NCBI GenBank assembly: GCA_026552955.1
Contig: JAPMTS010000050.1
Location: 1 to 55,532 of the forward strand
Source of the DNA: Candidatus Methanoperedens sp.
GTDB lineage: Archaea > Halobacteriota > Methanosarcinia > Methanosarcinales > Methanoperedenaceae
Length of the DNA: 55,532 nucleotides
Reading direction: 5' to 3'
A model generated the notes under the pieces. That model saw only the letters and a program-made list of their open reading frames with translations. It was not told the DNA's origin and did not search any database. The translations under genes were made by a program, and so were the position numbers. This document shows positions 18,418 through 27,698 of this stretch, one piece after another. Position 1 is the stretch's first letter, and the number at the start of each line of letters is the position of its first letter.

Positions 18418-19275
18418 TCAGATATACAGCCCGCCGTTTATGTCTATGACCTGGCCTGTTATATAGTCTCCTTCTTGTGATGCAAGGAAAGCGACTGTTC
18501 CTGCGACCTCGGAAGCTTTTCCAAGCCTTCCAAGTGGTATTTTGGATAGGATCTTGCCCATTACATCATCCGGGATCCCTTTTACCATATCGGTTTCAAT
18601 GAACCCGGGGGCAATTGCATTCACGGTAACGCCTTTTCCTGCAAATTCCTTTGCCAGGGCCTTTGTAAGTCCTATCATTCCTGCTTTTGATGCAGTATAA
18701 TTAGCCTGCCCGAAATTACCCATCCTGCCAACCACAGAAGATATATTAATAATCCGCCCGTACTTTCTCTCAAGCATTCCTTCTATGAAAGCCTTGGTGC
18801 AATAGAATGTCCCATCCAGGTTTACATGCATAACATCGTCCCACATGTCAGAAGTCATTTTCACAAATGATTTATCCCGGACTATTCCCGCGTTATTAAT
18901 GAGGATGTCCAGTTTTCCGAATTCTTTTATGACCTCTTCCTGCATTTTTTTTACCTGCTCGAAATTACTGACATTCGCCTGGCATATGTAAGAGTGCTTT
19001 TCAATAGCATCCAGCTGTTTTGAGTATTCTTTTGCATGTTCTTTATTATTCATCCTGTTGATCTTCAAGGCAATTTTTTCAAGCTCATCTGCTATGCCCA
19101 TCATGTCAATTAGCTTTGATACTGTCTCTGCATGCTCTTTCTTATTCTGGTAGTTTATTATAACATCTGCTCCCTCCTGGGCCATGCGCAAAGAGATAGC
19201 TTTTCCGATCCCTCTTGAGCCTCCTGTGACCAGGGCAACTTTACCATCCAGTCTGCCTTTTTCCCTGCAACCCAT
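18418..19275 (-). CDS. phaB: Acetoacetyl-CoA reductase (PhaB/FabG type) with an internal insertion
   Basis: A 285-residue short-chain dehydrogenase. The cofactor site is VTGGSRGIGKA, then NNAGIVRD and the catalytic NISSVVGRMGNFGQANYTAS with YxxxK. It would reduce acetoacetyl-CoA to 3-hydroxybutyryl-CoA for PHA synthesis. It is about 35-40 residues longer than its neighbour at 19507: between strand 2 and strand 3 it carries NKKEHAETVSKLID followed by a second similar stretch NNKEHAKEYSKQLDAIE, which looks like a partial tandem duplication next to the cofactor-specificity loop. The start at ATG 19275 has AGGTGA four bases upstream. Confidence 0.85.
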   Translation of the reverse strand: MGCREKGRLDGKVALVTGGSRGIGKAISLRMAQEGADVIINYQNKKEHAETVSKLIDMMGIADELEKIALKINRMNNKEHAKEYSKQLDAIEKHSYICQANVSNFEQVKKMQEEVIKEFGKLDILINNAGIVRDKSFVKMTSDMWDDVMHVNLDGTFYCTKAFIEGMLERKYGRIINISSVVGRMGNFGQANYTASKAGMIGLTKALAKEFAGKGVTVNAIAPGFIETDMVKGIPDDVMGKILSKIPLGRLGKASEVAGTVAFLASQEGDYITGQVIDINGGLYI

Positions 19276-19279
19276 ACTT

Positions 19280-19492
19280 TCACCTCTGTACAACAATGGC
19301 TATGCCCTGCCCTCCGCCTATACAGAGGGTTGCAAGACCATATCTGCCATTCCTTCTCTTTAATTCATGAAGAAGCTTCAAGGCATCCTTCAATACAATT
19401 GAACCAAGCTGTGCTGGATTGAGATCTTTGAGGCTTCCCCCGAATTTTCCTATTGCCGTACGGGTTGCGCAAGCTATTACCACATTCTTCAT
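19280..19492 (-). pseudogene. phaA: Acetyl-CoA acetyltransferase (phaA-type thiolase) with an internal in-frame deletion
   Basis: The 70-residue frame joins the thiolase N-terminus ([20 protein letters not shown]) directly to the thiolase C-terminus ([31 protein letters not shown]). A normal thiolase has about 390 residues, so roughly 320 are missing, with the junction at about residues 38-40. The reactive cysteine near position 89 and the catalytic histidine of the GHP motif are lost; only the C-terminal cysteine remains. The ribosome site (GGGTGG), ATG and stop are intact and the frame is preserved. It cannot be an active thiolase; it may be a relic or be translated as a small protein. It sits between the two phaB genes. 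Confidence 0.88.
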
Positions 19493-19506
19493 GATTGCCA
19501 CCCGGT

Positions 19507-20247
19507 TTATAGCAGGAGCCCGCCGTCAACAGAAAGTACCGCACCATTAATGAAATTGGCCTCATCGGAAGCAAGATATAATAACGCATAGGCGACATCA
19601 TCAGGCTGTCCAAGTCTTTTTATGGGCGTTTTTTCTTTCATCATCTCAAGAATTTTTTCGGGTACTGTTGCAGTCATGGGAGTATATATGAATCCGGGAG
19701 CCACTGCATTGACCCTTATTCCTTTTCTTCCCAGTTCCTTGGCAAGGGTCTTGGTAAGACCGATCAATCCTGCTTTAGCTGAGGAATAATTCGACTGGCC
19801 GATATTGCCGTACAAACCAACAATAGAAGATACATTGATAATCTCGCCTGTTCCATGATTTGTCATTGCTTCAACAACTGCCTGGATGCAGTTAAAAGGC
19901 CCTTTAAGATCGATATCAATTACCTTGTCCCACTGGTCTTCAGTCATTTTTGATATGAGGGCATCCTGGATAATTCCTGCATTATTTATGAGTACATCAA
20001 TCTTTCCGAATCTTTCCAGCGTATCCTTAACAACTTGTTTTGATTGTTCCCTGTCGGATACATCAAGTTTTGCAAAGAAAGCATCGCTTCCGTTTTGTCT
20101 TATCTCTTCGGCTGTTTCCTCACCGGCTTTTTCATTCACATCTGCGACTACGACTTTTGCGCCTTCTTTTCCAAACAGCAGGGCTGTTTCCCTGCCAATA
20201 CCGCTTCCTGAACCTGTAATAATTACTACCTTGTTTTCAACTCTCAT
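19507..20247 (-). CDS. phaB: Acetoacetyl-CoA reductase / 3-oxoacyl reductase (PhaB/FabG type)
   Basis: A 246-residue short-chain dehydrogenase of normal length. Motifs are [19 protein letters not shown], and [20 protein letters not shown] with the catalytic S, Y and K. It is closely similar to the neighbour at 18418 but lacks its insertion. Its ATG overlaps the phaC stop by four bases, so it is co-translated with the PHA synthase, and acetoacetyl-CoA reductase is the most likely role. Two reductases in one operon suggest different chain length or cofactor preference. Confidence 0.88.
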
Positions 20248-21368
20248 TTCAAACTCTCCTTCGATTTATTATGATTCGTCTTGTTTTTCTTTACGCCAAT
20301 ATTATTTTCATCCTTCTTTGATCTTGGTTTCAGCCATTGCGCTAGTTTCGGGCAGACCTCGTTCTGAGACTTTGAGCCAACGAACATACCAATATGTCCA
20401 GTGGGGAAAACCATCGATTCCTTATCGGTGCTCGATATAGCTCTGGTCAGGGGAAGGCTTGACTCATTTGGAACAAGATGATCAAATTCTGCCATTATAT
20501 TGAGAAATGGCATGGAAATTTCTTTCAGGTTTATCCTTTTCCCACCGATTTCCATCCTGTTTTTAATGAGAAGGTTTTCCTGGTAACAGTCCTTCATGAA
20601 CTGTCTGTAGGCTTCGCCTGCCTGGCCAGGACTATCAAATATCCATTTTTCCATGCGGAGAAAATTCTCTACGGTTTTCTTATCATCAATATGTTCAAAA
20701 AATCCCACATATTTGTCGATCAGAAGCCTGAAAGGGTCAAGAAGCAGGAATCCCATATTCAGGAAATCCCCCGGGATTATTCCGTAATAGTCCACAATTT
20801 TGTCCACATCCATTTCTTTTGCCCAGATATTGAGCAGGGATTTATCGGTTTCAAAGTCAATGGGTGCAACGAAACTTATCAGGTTTTTCACCTTTTCCGG
20901 ATGAAGCGCGGCAAACATTACTGATAATGTTCCCCCCACGCATACACCTAAAAGGGATATCTTATCTGCTCCTGATTTTCGTCTTACATGATCTACAGCA
21001 TTATTCAGATAGCCATTTACATAATCATCTATCGTGAGATATCTGTCCATACCTGAGGGGTATCCCCAATCAATAGCATAAACATCAAAACCCCTGTCCA
21101 AAAGGTTCTTGATCACACTCTTATCGGGTGAAAGATCGAGAATATAATAACGGTTGACAAGTGCATATACCATAAGAACAGGAACAGGACAGGGATTTTT
21201 AACTGTGGTCTTATAGTGGATGAGTTTCATCTTATCTTCACTATATACTATCTCGTGAGGTGTTACCCCCACTAAAATTTCTGTTAATTCCGAAATTACT
21301 TCAGATCCTTTCTGAAATTTTATAAAAGTTTCCCTGATAAAATCAGGTTCATTAATTTTTTGGATCAT
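20244..21368 (-). CDS. phaC: Class III polyhydroxyalkanoate synthase, catalytic subunit PhaC
   Basis: A 374-residue alpha/beta hydrolase that polymerises 3-hydroxyacyl-CoA. The lipase-like box is GVCVGGT with the nucleophile Cys143; Asp296 (AEFDHLVP) and His325 (PTGHIGMF) complete the triad, near the positions known in class III enzymes. Length and the dedicated PhaE partner upstream both indicate class III. The C-terminal tail is unusually basic (KKDENNIGVKKNKTNHNKSK). It lies seven bases after phaE and overlaps phaB. Confidence 0.95.
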   Translation of the reverse strand: MIQKINEPDFIRETFIKFQKGSEVISELTEILVGVTPHEIVYSEDKMKLIHYKTTVKNPCPVPVLMVYALVNRYYILDLSPDKSVIKNLLDRGFDVYAIDWGYPSGMDRYLTIDDYVNGYLNNAVDHVRRKSGADKISLLGVCVGGTLSVMFAALHPEKVKNLISFVAPIDFETDKSLLNIWAKEMDVDKIVDYYGIIPGDFLNMGFLLLDPFRLLIDKYVGFFEHIDDKKTVENFLRMEKWIFDSPGQAGEAYRQFMKDCYQENLLIKNRMEIGGKRINLKEISMPFLNIMAEFDHLVPNESSLPLTRAISSTDKESMVFPTGHIGMFVGSKSQNEVCPKLAQWLKPRSKKDENNIGVKKNKTNHNKSKESLK

Positions 21369-21375
21369 AAAAAAC

Positions 21376-21915
21376 TCATTTTCCCTGTGATAATTCGTTG
21401 ATCTTCCGGTTCAATTCTTTTACTGTTTTTTTGAGGGAATACAATTCCCTGTTGATCTCATCGATATCAGTGCTTGTAGGCAGGTTCATGGGTTTCAGGA
21501 AATTTTCTTCAAGCATTTCCTGATTGTATTTCCTGGCTTCGATCAAACATGACATGAATTTGCCCATGTCCCCGGAAAAATGACCTGACCTGAGAAATTC
21601 CTTGAAGGTATCGCTGTATGTTTCAATCCAATTATTGTATATTTCTTTGTATTTAACAGGGTTGATCTGGCCATCCATGAGTGCTGTTTTGTCATTCATC
21701 CTTTTCATAGCCTCAAGGGATATATTCGCAAAATCGGAAACAGAATCCAGCCAAACTGAATAAAGGTCGGTAAAAAGAGGATAACCTTTCATCATTTTTT
21801 CTGTTTTCTCTCTTGAGGGGCCTAAGGCTGGAAATTCCCCTATGTGGCCGAAGGAGGCTTCCCATGCCTTTAACCATTGGGCAAAAAATATAGTTGGGGA
21901 TTCGTCCATGCTCAT
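21376..21915 (-). CDS. phaE: PHA synthase subunit PhaE
   Basis: About 179 residues. PhaE is the non-catalytic partner that activates class III PhaC. A helical body with one copy of the motif YKEIYNNWIETYSDTFKEF, a conserved proline-rich stretch (NFLKPMNLPTSTDIDE) and a C-terminal coiled coil (INRELYSLKKTVKELNRKIN) match PhaE. The start at ATG 21915 overlaps the upstream stop (ATGA), which is better supported than the ATG 13 codons earlier inside the neighbouring gene. Confidence 0.88.
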   Translation of the reverse strand: MSMDESPTIFFAQWLKAWEASFGHIGEFPALGPSREKTEKMMKGYPLFTDLYSVWLDSVSDFANISLEAMKRMNDKTALMDGQINPVKYKEIYNNWIETYSDTFKEFLRSGHFSGDMGKFMSCLIEARKYNQEMLEENFLKPMNLPTSTDIDEINRELYSLKKTVKELNRKINELSQGK

Positions 21916-22997
21916 ACCCCGGGGCGTGATGCGCGCATATACGAATCGATCCACATTTTCGATATTTTTATGGATGTCCTGGCATATATCTTACAGGCAT
22001 CCCTGATAGGCTCCATCATCTCTTTGACCGGAGATACCATGGGCATCTTGTCAAAGACATCTTCAAGAGCCTTTTCATGCATCTTCACCCAGAGGTTAAA
22101 AAAATCTTTATAAGCACCGGGATCAGTTGTTATTTTAGAATGGTCCTTGAATTTTTCATGCATATTTTCAAGGGCCAAAATCCATGATTTATAAAGATTC
22201 AGGCTTATTTCGCTGCTCTCAATAAAATTATCCAATGCTTCCCGGGATGACATTGCAGACTGAGGATCAAACATTTTTTTAAAGTTATCTTGATAGGTAT
22301 TTACCCATAAGTCAAAGAATTCCTTATAGTTCTCAGGTCCTGCATTGCCCGCAGATATTTTTTCTATATTCATAGAAAGCTTCTGCATGTTTTCGATCCA
22401 GGGATTATACAATTTATTAAAAGAATCCCTCCACATCGAGGACATTTTCAACAATGTCTCTGAATAGAAATCCGGTATGCCGGTATAATTTCCATAAACC
22501 TCTTTCTGGTATCTTACGGCTGGTTGTTCGATAAAATCGTTCGACATTTTATCATAGGATTTCATCCACATTTCATAACACTCTTTGAACCTGGCAGGGT
22601 CAGCTCCATTTTTAAGTAATTCCGAGGTCTTTTTTGCATTTTCTTCAGATTCTTCTATCCATGACCGGTATAGTTTGTTGGATTCACCCGATATTTTTAT
22701 GAAATTCTCAAGAGTTTCTTTTGGTCCTGGAATCGAAGCGGGATAGAACTTACCAAAAGAATTCTCGTATGTTTTCATCCATTCATTATAAAATTCCTTA
22801 TAATTCCCTGGCGTGGCATTTATGGAAGTTTCTTTTGTCTTTTCTGACATTTCTCCCATTAATTCAATCCATGGTTTCATAAGTTTTGAATGGGATTCAT
22901 CCCATGTTTTTGAGGCGCTGCCATATGTATCGGACCATATTTTATGGACATCTCCATTTATCGCGAATTCCGGACTGTTATCCTGTTTCTTGACCAT
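21912..22997 (-). CDS. Four-repeat PhaE-like protein, first gene of the PHA operon
   Basis: A 361-residue, all-helical, cytoplasmic protein. It contains four copies of a unit of about 70-85 residues. Each has an LYxxWIE-type helix (residues about 38, 108, 195, 267) followed by a YKEFYxxWxxTYxxxF-type helix (residues 65-84, 136-155, 223-243, 295-315). The second helix is the same motif found once in PhaE next door. It lacks the PhaE C-terminal coiled coil. It overlaps phaE by four bases and leads the operon. Likely roles are synthase scaffold, granule-binding (phasin-like) protein or multivalent PhaC activator; none is proved by sequence. Confidence 0.75.
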   Translation of the reverse strand: MVKKQDNSPEFAINGDVHKIWSDTYGSASKTWDESHSKLMKPWIELMGEMSEKTKETSINATPGNYKEFYNEWMKTYENSFGKFYPASIPGPKETLENFIKISGESNKLYRSWIEESEENAKKTSELLKNGADPARFKECYEMWMKSYDKMSNDFIEQPAVRYQKEVYGNYTGIPDFYSETLLKMSSMWRDSFNKLYNPWIENMQKLSMNIEKISAGNAGPENYKEFFDLWVNTYQDNFKKMFDPQSAMSSREALDNFIESSEISLNLYKSWILALENMHEKFKDHSKITTDPGAYKDFFNLWVKMHEKALEDVFDKMPMVSPVKEMMEPIRDACKIYARTSIKISKMWIDSYMRASRPGV

Positions 22998-26246: not shown

Positions 26247-26660
26247 TTATCTTTTCTTGTCTTTCTTTGTTGAACTGGCTTTCCTGGTCTTAGAAACAGT
26301 CTTTACTATCTTCTTTTTTTTCGTTGCTGTTCGTGCCTTGGTTACTGGTTTTGCTCTTACCGGTTTGGATTTTGCCTTGACGGTCTTAGGTTTTGCTCTT
26401 ACCGATTTGGATTTTGCCTTGACGGTCTTAGGTTTTGCTCTTACTGGTTTGGATTTTGCCTTGACGGTCTTAGGTTTTGCTCTTACCGGTTTGGATTTTG
26501 CCTTGACGGTCTTAGGTTTTGCTCTTACCGGTTTTGGTCTTGCTTTAGTAGATATTGGCTTTGATCTGGCTGGTTTTGTATTGCCTGCCAGTACTTTCCT
26601 TCTCTCTTCCCACCACGAAGATACTGGTGTGGTGGATTTTCCCTTTGTTTTTATTGCCAT
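26247..26660 (-). CDS. Lysine-rich histone-H1-like repeat protein
   Basis: A 137-residue protein with almost only K, A, P, V, R, T and S. After a short head (STTPVSSWWEERRKVLAG) come four copies of the 14-residue unit RAKPKTVKAKSKPV (one with a P-to-S change), then a KKKK-rich tail. Composition and repeats resemble histone H1 tails and AlgP/H1-like bacterial proteins that bind and compact DNA. The ATG has GAGGT six bases upstream and a strong TATA box at 26693-26705, so it is probably well expressed. Disordered; no fold can be assigned. Confidence 0.75.
   Translation of the reverse strand: MAIKTKGKSTTPVSSWWEERRKVLAGNTKPARSKPISTKARPKPVRAKPKTVKAKSKPVRAKPKTVKAKSKPVRAKPKTVKAKSKSVRAKPKTVKAKSKPVRAKPVTKARTATKKKKIVKTVSKTRKASSTKKDKKR
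26356..26523 (-). repeat. Four 42-bp tandem repeats inside the H1-like gene
   Basis: Units start at 26356, 26398, 26440 and 26482, with a partial fifth from 26524. Copies differ by only one or two bases at one site (ACCGG, ACCGA, ACTGG), pointing to recent expansion. The period is a multiple of three, so copy-number change keeps the frame. Confidence 0.9.
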
Positions 26661-26711: not shown

Positions 26712-27005
26712 AAAATATAATGAGAATGATAACATAAGGAGAAAACTATCCATACAGCAATTTGAACTATGAAAAGCAAAACTTGGTTTGATTTACAATG
26801 ACAAAATAGTAGAAAAGAACAAAAAGAATGCTCAATTGAAGAGATGGGAAAAAAGACAGCAGAAATATTCAGTAAACTTCAGCTTGGAACGCTCATTCCT
26901 AACTGAATAAAATTTTTGAAGCTAAAAATCCAAGACCGGATATTTACTGGAATCCTCAGATAGATGCCATACAGTCAACGAGAGACCACTGCAAGAAGGG
27001 GAGCA
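26712..27005 (+). other. Decayed coding-looking sequence upstream of the intron fragment
   Basis: No intact gene. Two stretches look like former coding sequence: about 26777-26905, reading KAKLGLIYNDKIVEKNKKNA and on to RSFLTE then a stop; and about 26911-27022, reading KIFEAKNPRPDIYWNPQIDA then a stop. Neither matches a family I can name. The reverse-transcriptase match begins abruptly at about 27006, so this is a junction between unrelated pieces. Confidence 0.35.
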
Positions 27006-27698
27006 AAAAGTGGAATAATGAATGAGGGTTTATTTAAAGAGAGTACCGAAGGTACTCCCCAAGGCGGAAATCTCAGTCCACTGCTGTCGAATATTTATCT
27101 AAATCATTTCGACAGAAGAATGGGCGATTATGGATATCTGCTGCTTCGATATGCTGATGACATCGTTATTTTCTGCAAGTTCGAATCAGATGCACAGGAT
27201 GCCCTGAAACGAGCAAAGGAAATTCTTGAGGGTGAGCTAAAGTTAAAACTCAGTCCTGAAAAGACAAAGACCATCCATGCAAGAAAGAAAGGGGTTGAGT
27301 TCCTTGGTTTCCATTTTAATGGACGCTGGAGAAGGCCGAAGGATAAAGCTAAGAAGAAGTTCAAGGAAGAAATAAAACGGCGGACAAGACGCCAACAACC
27401 TGTAAGTATTGAGACTGTAATAAGTTTTCTCAATCCTGTTATCCGGGGTTGGGGAAATTATTTCAAAGGAGGCACTGTGAAGAAATTGTTTGAAGAACTT
27501 GATGGTTATATAAGGGCACGTTTGAGGAGCTTTAAGGCCAAAAGGCGTACCTGGGGAACTATTCTATACACGCTTCCTCAATCAAAGCTTAAAAATATGG
27601 GGCTGATTTCTCTTTCTTCGTTACTGAATGAATCCGTTTCCTGCAAAGGGAAAATCCAGACGAAAGCCGTGTACGGAAAAACCGTCCGCACGGTTTGA
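27006..27698 (+). pseudogene. ltrA: Truncated group II intron reverse transcriptase/maturase
   Basis: Visible parts are RT motif 4, EGTPQGGNLSPLLSNIYL; the catalytic RYADDIVIF; the EFLGFHF motif; and the maturase-type GWGNYFKGG (domain X). Similarity starts at KSGIMNEGLF, so fingers motifs RT0-RT3 and the N-terminal extension are lost. The frame can be opened at ATG 26964, which prefixes 14 unrelated residues. The stop TGA lies at the end of the domain V helix, as in some archaeal and bacterial introns where the ORF runs into the ribozyme core. Confidence 0.88.
27664..27696 (+). ncRNA. Group II intron domain V
   Basis: The 5' strand AAGCCGTG carries the catalytic AGC triad and pairs with CGCACGGTTT; after a two-base bulge (CC) on the 3' side, ACGG pairs with CCGT around an A-rich loop. 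This matches the size and shape of domain V, the metal-binding catalytic core. Confidence 0.8.

Follow-up and report, generated by a model that had tools for sequence, protein, structure and literature searches.

Class III PHA synthases require the subunit PhaE, whose role is, to our knowledge, poorly understood. In Haloferax, the corresponding genes are arranged in the order phaJ-phaR-phaP-phaE-phaC, and phaP, directly upstream of phaE-phaC, encodes the major granule phasin (PMC10948481, PMC4823750). Phasins are usually described as proteins of low molecular weight (PMC5658603). The bacterial phasin families (PF05597, PF09361, PF09602 and PF09650, e.g., PhaF and PhaI) are characterized by amphipathic helices, and PhaF links the granules to the nucleoid. 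In Methanoperedens, PHA staining is positive (PMC11337218) and "a phasin", not traceable to a sequence, is among the more highly expressed genes in soil (PMC11208441). A PF09712 "PhaE" has been reported throughout the genus, PhaE not forming one cluster in the pangenome (PMC8561730). Here we describe a repeat protein, hereafter called REP, encoded in most cases directly upstream of phaE in this genus.

Organization of the pha operon

The analysed stretch, hereafter the window, is the whole of contig C42 (JAPMTS010000050.1, 55,532 nucleotides) of a 54-contig, 2.48-Mb genome of Candidatus Methanoperedens sp. On its minus strand the gene order is REP, phaE, phaC, a short-chain dehydrogenase (SDR) gene, a thiolase remnant and a second SDR gene (Table 1). 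The window has its closest matches in Candidatus Methanoperedens / ANME-2d, and the REP of "FeB_1" (L045) shows 93% identity. The likely true start of PhaE is the ATG at 21915 rather than the GTG, and it overlaps the REP stop codon as ATGA; since the same type of overlap is found at the PhaC/SDR1 junction, the pha operon is considered tightly coupled, and the "leader protein" of the sequence-only reading is the product of its first gene. The order rep-phaE-phaC-phaB(-phaA)-phaB is conserved, and 4-bp overlaps or 2-nt gaps are common. The phaA remnant of the window, compared with the intact phaA in the operons of relatives, reflects either an internal deletion of most codons or an assembly error. 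Elsewhere in the window (26964-27698, plus strand), a 244-aa ORF resembles, as read by eye, a reverse transcriptase/maturase of the group II intron type with an apparently truncated N-terminus.

Table 1. Positions of the pha operon genes, of the repeat units and of one further gene in the window.
Feature	Position	Strand	Description
REP	21912..22997	-	361 aa, all-helical, four motifs, operon gene 1; ORF and PF09712 match, 34.7 bits (gathering cut-off 25.7)
REP unit R1	22731..22934	-	residues 22-89; motif 66-77 = 22767-22802
REP unit R2	22512..22715	-	residues 95-162; motif 137-148 = 22554-22589
REP unit R3	22254..22460	-	residues 180-248; motif 224-235 = 22293-22328; nearest to R1
REP unit R4	22035..22241	-	residues 253-321; motif 296-307 = 22077-22112; nearest to R2
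REP C-terminal half unit	21927..22034	-	residues 322-357; weakly like the start of R1/R3 (hhalign probability 83%, 18-19 columns)
PhaE, class III PHA synthase subunit	21376..21954	-	192 aa from GTG; PF09712 E 2.1e-20
PhaE first motif helix	21850..21897	-	residues 20-35; conserved aromatics, aligns to REP motif 3
PhaE second unit	21583..21807	-	residues 50-124; motif 102-113 = 21616-21651; helices H48-90, H99-122
PhaE C-terminal zipper-like segment	21385..21489	-	LPT..EIDEINKELYSLKK, residues 156-190; not in REP
PhaC, class III PHA synthase catalytic subunit	20244..21368	-	TIGR01836 481 bits (cut-off 365.3)
SDR1, PhaB/FabG-like short-chain dehydrogenase	19507..20247	-	start overlaps PhaC stop (ATGA)
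phaA thiolase remnant	19283..19501	-	between both SDR genes; codons 1-42 and 361-393 of ortholog
Second SDR, PhaB/FabG-like	18418..19296	-	ORF, operon context
Very basic protein	26247..26660	-	137 aa, pI 12, VRAKPKTVKAK repeats, SSWWEERR; motif as in N-extended REPs

Repeat architecture of REP

The sequence-only reading had noted a helix motif (YKEFYxxWxxTY) occurring four times in REP and once in PhaE, and had proposed an origin by duplication. The four copies in REP were recovered at residues 66, 137, 224 and 296 (YKEFYNEWMKTY, FKECYEMWMKSY, YKEFFDLWVNTY and YKDFFNLWVKMH, respectively), and the Smith-Waterman score of one half of the protein against the other was 251, far above the maximum of 60 reached in 500 shuffles; two REP paralogs gave 240 and 258, with shuffle maxima of 65 and 67. 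The spacings between motifs (71, 87 and 72 residues) hinted at a period of two motifs. Profiles of the units were cut from 48 homologs and compared with hhalign, reversed profiles serving as a control. In this repeat-profile search, which the sequence-only reading had called for, R1 matched R3 at E 7.6e-35, R2 matched R4 at E 1.4e-23 and the first double unit matched the second at E 2.6e-48, whereas the reversed controls did not exceed a probability of 26%. As R1 is nearest to R3 and R2 to R4, and as the double units match each other, the protein can be written (R1R2)(R3R4) plus a C-terminal piece; judged from these comparisons, REP is a tandem pair of two-hairpin units followed by a C-terminal half unit, and the proposed duplication is borne out by the matches within the protein.

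All four motif copies are kept in the 48 members of the family, the motif Trp being 97-100% conserved. When the four copies of REP and the two of PhaE (see below) are considered together, Trp occupies offset +7 in 96-100% of sequences and offsets 0, +4 and +11 are mostly aromatic, the exceptions being a Thr at offset 0 in the first PhaE copy and a Cys or Val at +3 in R2. The conserved positions fall on one face of the helix, which thus carries an aromatic ridge. The helices of REP are strongly amphipathic, with a mean moment of 0.49 compared with 0.23 in shuffled sequences.

Kinship between REP and PhaE

The single motif attributed to PhaE by the sequence-only reading has to be corrected to two, since the first copy (FFAQWLKAW, residues ~20-31) had been overlooked; its aromatic residues at +3, +4, +7 and +11 are present in 91-100% of 33 PhaEs. 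The kinship that this reading had seen between the two proteins holds: REP matches PF09712 above the cut-off, and residues 13-142 of PhaE align with residues 204-336 of REP (motifs 3 and 4) at E 7.8e-19 in profile-profile comparison. The PhaE core matched the REP double units at E 2e-20 to 4e-22. By sequence, therefore, PhaE is one double unit with two motifs, followed by a helix and a zipper-like tail, both of which are missing from REP. As the unit duplicated is the whole two-hairpin PhaE core, REP corresponds to a doubled PhaE core and not to four copies of a single PhaE unit.

The conserved tail of PhaE is the zipper segment LPTxxEIDEINKELYSLKK. Neither the R units nor the C-terminal piece of REP (R5) matched this segment (Ed), and the match of REP to the PhaE-family profile ends at position 251 of 311. 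The tail resembles the ends of phasin profiles, namely TIGR01837 (weakly) and, in one PhaE with a repeated tail, PF05597. The latter PhaE, of 352 aa (L134:4942-5997, minus strand; genome G022, contig C31), carries the zipper segment LPTKTEIDEINKELDSLKGTVKESNLKTMD in about five tandem copies and matches phasin PF05597; the part amplified there is the end of PhaE opposite to that doubled in REP.

The AlphaFold2 model of PhaE (pLDDT 82, pTM 0.56) contains helices at residues 20-35, 48-90, 99-122, 125-153 and 161-191, and that of the REP single chain, of low confidence (pLDDT 67, pTM 0.40), shows long helices alternating with motif helices. The predicted order of secondary structure is the same in both proteins: a motif helix, a loop with P..GP.(R/K)E, a long helix and a motif helix. 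Sequence searches of solved structures with REP, PhaE and both profiles returned no meaningful relative, and Foldseek searches with the two models gave nothing below E 0.001. The low E-value of 3jqh (C-type lectin neck) to PhaE was traced to coiled-coil similarity of the PhaE tail, and a likeness of PhaE to BAR domains was weak (TM-score ~0.25); both candidates were rejected.

In a divergent locus (L098:6947-11617), a direct repeat of 183 nt occurs six times across two REP genes and phaE. Two of the copies, both inside one REP, are 95% identical, which indicates that units were recently duplicated within REP. The PhaE of this locus starts with ASPEAYKEFYNLWTKTYEETFGKF, nearly identical to REP units, and units have probably been exchanged between REP and phaE, as far as these sequences can tell. 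Besides REP, PhaE and PhaC, the same locus encodes a 135-aa phasin-like protein with one motif near its C-terminus (L098:4567-4971, plus strand).

Family assignment and distribution

Pfam PHA_synth_III_E (PF09712) is matched by 45 of 48 REP members; the paralog C17 gave no match. With 20.7 bits, the REP of the window lies below the TIGR01834 cut-off of 154.95, as does the PhaE of the window itself (60.5 bits, E 1.9e-16). No match was obtained between the window REP and PF05597, PF09361, PF09602 or PF09650; across the family, 13 of 48 REPs match PF09361 (Phasin_2) at E<=0.01 (best 5.3e-6), the matches of the paralogs from the same genome being below the cut-off. REP is not filed here as a PhaE, because it has no PhaE tail, falls below the TIGR01834 cut-off and stands alongside a separate PhaE. 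The proposal that the protein is undescribed is thus upheld in part: our literature search found no paper on the repeat protein or its role, but annotators already place REP in PHA_synth_III_E, as the 45 matches show. The PF09712 matches of Methanoperedens should accordingly be read with caution as a mixture of PhaE and REP, and this mixing is a possible cause of the split PhaE clusters in the published pangenome (PMC8561730).

Of 60 relatives, 27 carry REP, almost all of them members of the genus and with up to ~12 matches per genome, and in a sample of 295 genomes of the phylum it occurred in two besides its own genome, adjoining PhaE both times; REP is a genus-wide family in Methanoperedens. 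A few loci were met in MAGs labelled Methanomicrobiales (L059), Nitrospirae (L080), Methanosarcina (L101) and Dehalococcoidales (L103), through transfer or misbinning, and a search of IMG/VR gave no relative of REP or PhaE. Of the 75 REP genes on named contigs, 46 are followed by phaE within 600 bp, 12 precede another REP, 3 sit at a contig end and 14 are placed elsewhere. Both REP and PhaC are present in 24 of 31 genomes of the genus, REP only in 2 (77% and 63% complete), PhaC only in none and neither in 5, two of which are more than 95% complete (Fisher p 1.2e-4, the relatedness of the genomes being ignored). In the tree, the operon-linked state occurs throughout, and most of the orphans, as well as the N-terminally extended REPs, are nested inside operon-linked copies. 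One clade of orphans away from phaEC comprises L144:5464-6561 (genome G000, contig C1), L070, L084 and L088. Among 107 genes sampled, the REP of the window ranked 38 and the orphan on contig C1 ranked 1 for codon adaptation, an index that hardly separates ribosomal genes here and is uninformative as a proxy of expression.

Proposed function of REP

We propose, with a probability of roughly 0.55, that REP is a PHA granule-surface protein, analogous to a phasin, which derives from a duplicated and tandemly doubled PhaE helical core. This reading relies on the homology of REP to PhaE, its operon coupling and co-occurrence with PhaC, its position in the place of phaP, its amphipathic helices, the expansion of its paralogs, the similarity of some members to Phasin_2 and the expressed "phasin" of the soil study (PMC11208441). 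Occupying the operon place of the granule coat gene of other archaea, REP probably does the same job, and of the two functions offered by the sequence-only reading, a phasin would fit this position better than a multivalent synthase-binding scaffold. The expansion of paralogs and the orphan copies would suit a set of coat proteins, and no other phasin-like family was met among the loci analysed. Against the coat function, REP with its 361 aa exceeds the usual size of phasins, codon usage does not flag the copy of the window as highly expressed, and Phasin_2 is matched below the cut-off by the paralogs of this genome and not at all by the window REP. The combination of amphipathic helices and a place among the pha genes is unspecific, as PhaE has it too; the latter is equally amphipathic (0.48), so that the helix moment does not tell a coat from a subunit.

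In the mechanism that we envisage, each unit would consist of a long amphipathic helix, then a short helix with an aromatic ridge (Y..FY..W...Y), and the hairpin array would rest on nascent or finished polymer and shield it. The PhaE-PhaC synthase could dock on REP via the like helical module, the zipper tail being kept by PhaE alone. Further paralogs, of which some have a long and charged extension at the N-terminus, may provide different granule coats or partner sites.

The likeness to known proteins is partial in each case. Like PhaE (PF09712, TIGR01834), REP has the homologous helical double unit and belongs to the same operon; unlike PhaE, it has two double units and a half, is devoid of the zipper segment and stands beside a separate PhaE in complete operons. 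With haloarchaeal PhaP (Haloferax mediterranei, phaR-phaP-phaE-phaC) it shares the position directly upstream of phaE-phaC, a helical nature and, as proposed here, the coat role, but not significant sequence similarity: a PhaP-like ORF of 160 aa precedes phaE in a haloarchaeal-type locus (L121), has no motif array, and the REP unit profiles reached only E 0.017-0.4 against the PhaP-like ORFs of L121 and L108. Amphipathic helices are common to REP and the bacterial phasins, and PF09361 is touched by the 13 REPs mentioned above; the end of PF05597 is resembled by the tail of PhaE and not by REP, which has neither the zipper nor a confident membership in these families. A repeat architecture of the REP type was not found reported in the literature for bacterial phasin families.

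The main rival is that REP serves the class III synthase as an additional non-catalytic subunit or as a scaffold; its PhaE-like double units would then bind PhaC or pair with PhaE, hold several synthases together and set the granule number. We regard this as possible, though less likely than a coat. The derivation from PhaE by profile comparison, the translational coupling to phaE, the absence of REP from near-complete genomes without PhaC and the retention of the conserved motif face of PhaE would all be expected of such a subunit; the lack of the conserved PhaE C-terminal segment, the five REP loci compared with two class III PhaC above the cut-off in the same genome, and the orphan genes distant from phaEC argue against it. 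These orphans, and likewise the copies that have an N-terminal extension and lie apart from pha genes, could also suggest that REP works outside PHA biology, e.g., as a coiled protein of cell architecture merely travelling with the operon, which appears improbable given the operon linkage throughout the tree with most orphans nested within, the co-occurrence with PhaC and the kinship with PhaE.

It is scarcely credible that the repeats reflect a generic low-complexity or coiled-coil likeness instead of homology. REP is all-helical and charged, and long alpha-helices may align spuriously, but chance similarity was ruled out by the shuffles and reversed profiles, neither of which reproduced the signal; the Trp, Tyr and Pro positions are conserved, the units follow the alternating pattern R1-R3, R2-R4, and at L098 the repetition is visible in the DNA itself, with copies in both REP genes as well as in phaE.

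A motif common to REPs and other proteins

The motif (T)TPxSSWWE[ED]R is common to four kinds of protein (L127-L133, L153-L181 and the very basic protein of the window). TPxSSWWEER is present in one to three copies in the N-extended REPs, which measure 445-557 aa apart from some shorter members that look broken. The motif also begins small PhaF-like, histone-H1-like basic proteins with lysine-rich repeats (VRAKPKTVKAK), a metallophosphoesterase of ~505 aa that includes a Ppx/GppA-III/HD domain, and a mini protein resembling a zinc ribbon (Desulfoferrod_N-like). Across 120 genomes from the order, 25 sites were counted, 23 of them in Methanoperedenaceae, to which the motif is almost confined; the reversed pattern gave 0. 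One genome without REP and PhaC (G015) keeps the motif in the phosphoesterase, which means that it is not strictly tied to PHA.

From its sequence, the 137-aa basic protein of the window is a possible partner of REP. More speculatively, and in our opinion unlikely as a whole, Methanoperedens might possess a modular carbonosome of its own, in which lineage-specific coats would come from duplicated PhaE cores and the short N-terminal motif SSWWEER would dock the N-extended coats to the histone-H1-like proteins and to the phosphoesterase/Ppx enzyme, tying PHA (perhaps also polyphosphate) granules to DNA and to each other; the link of coats to histone-H1-like proteins would be analogous to that made by PhaF.

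Significance

By keeping the PhaE core in doubled form and dropping the tail, REP splits PhaE into its two parts, each of which is testable. If REP is a granule coat, it would be an example of a coat protein with its evolutionary origin in a subunit of the synthase. The lineage in question is uncultured, plays an important part in methane cycling and stores carbon from methane in the form of PHA.
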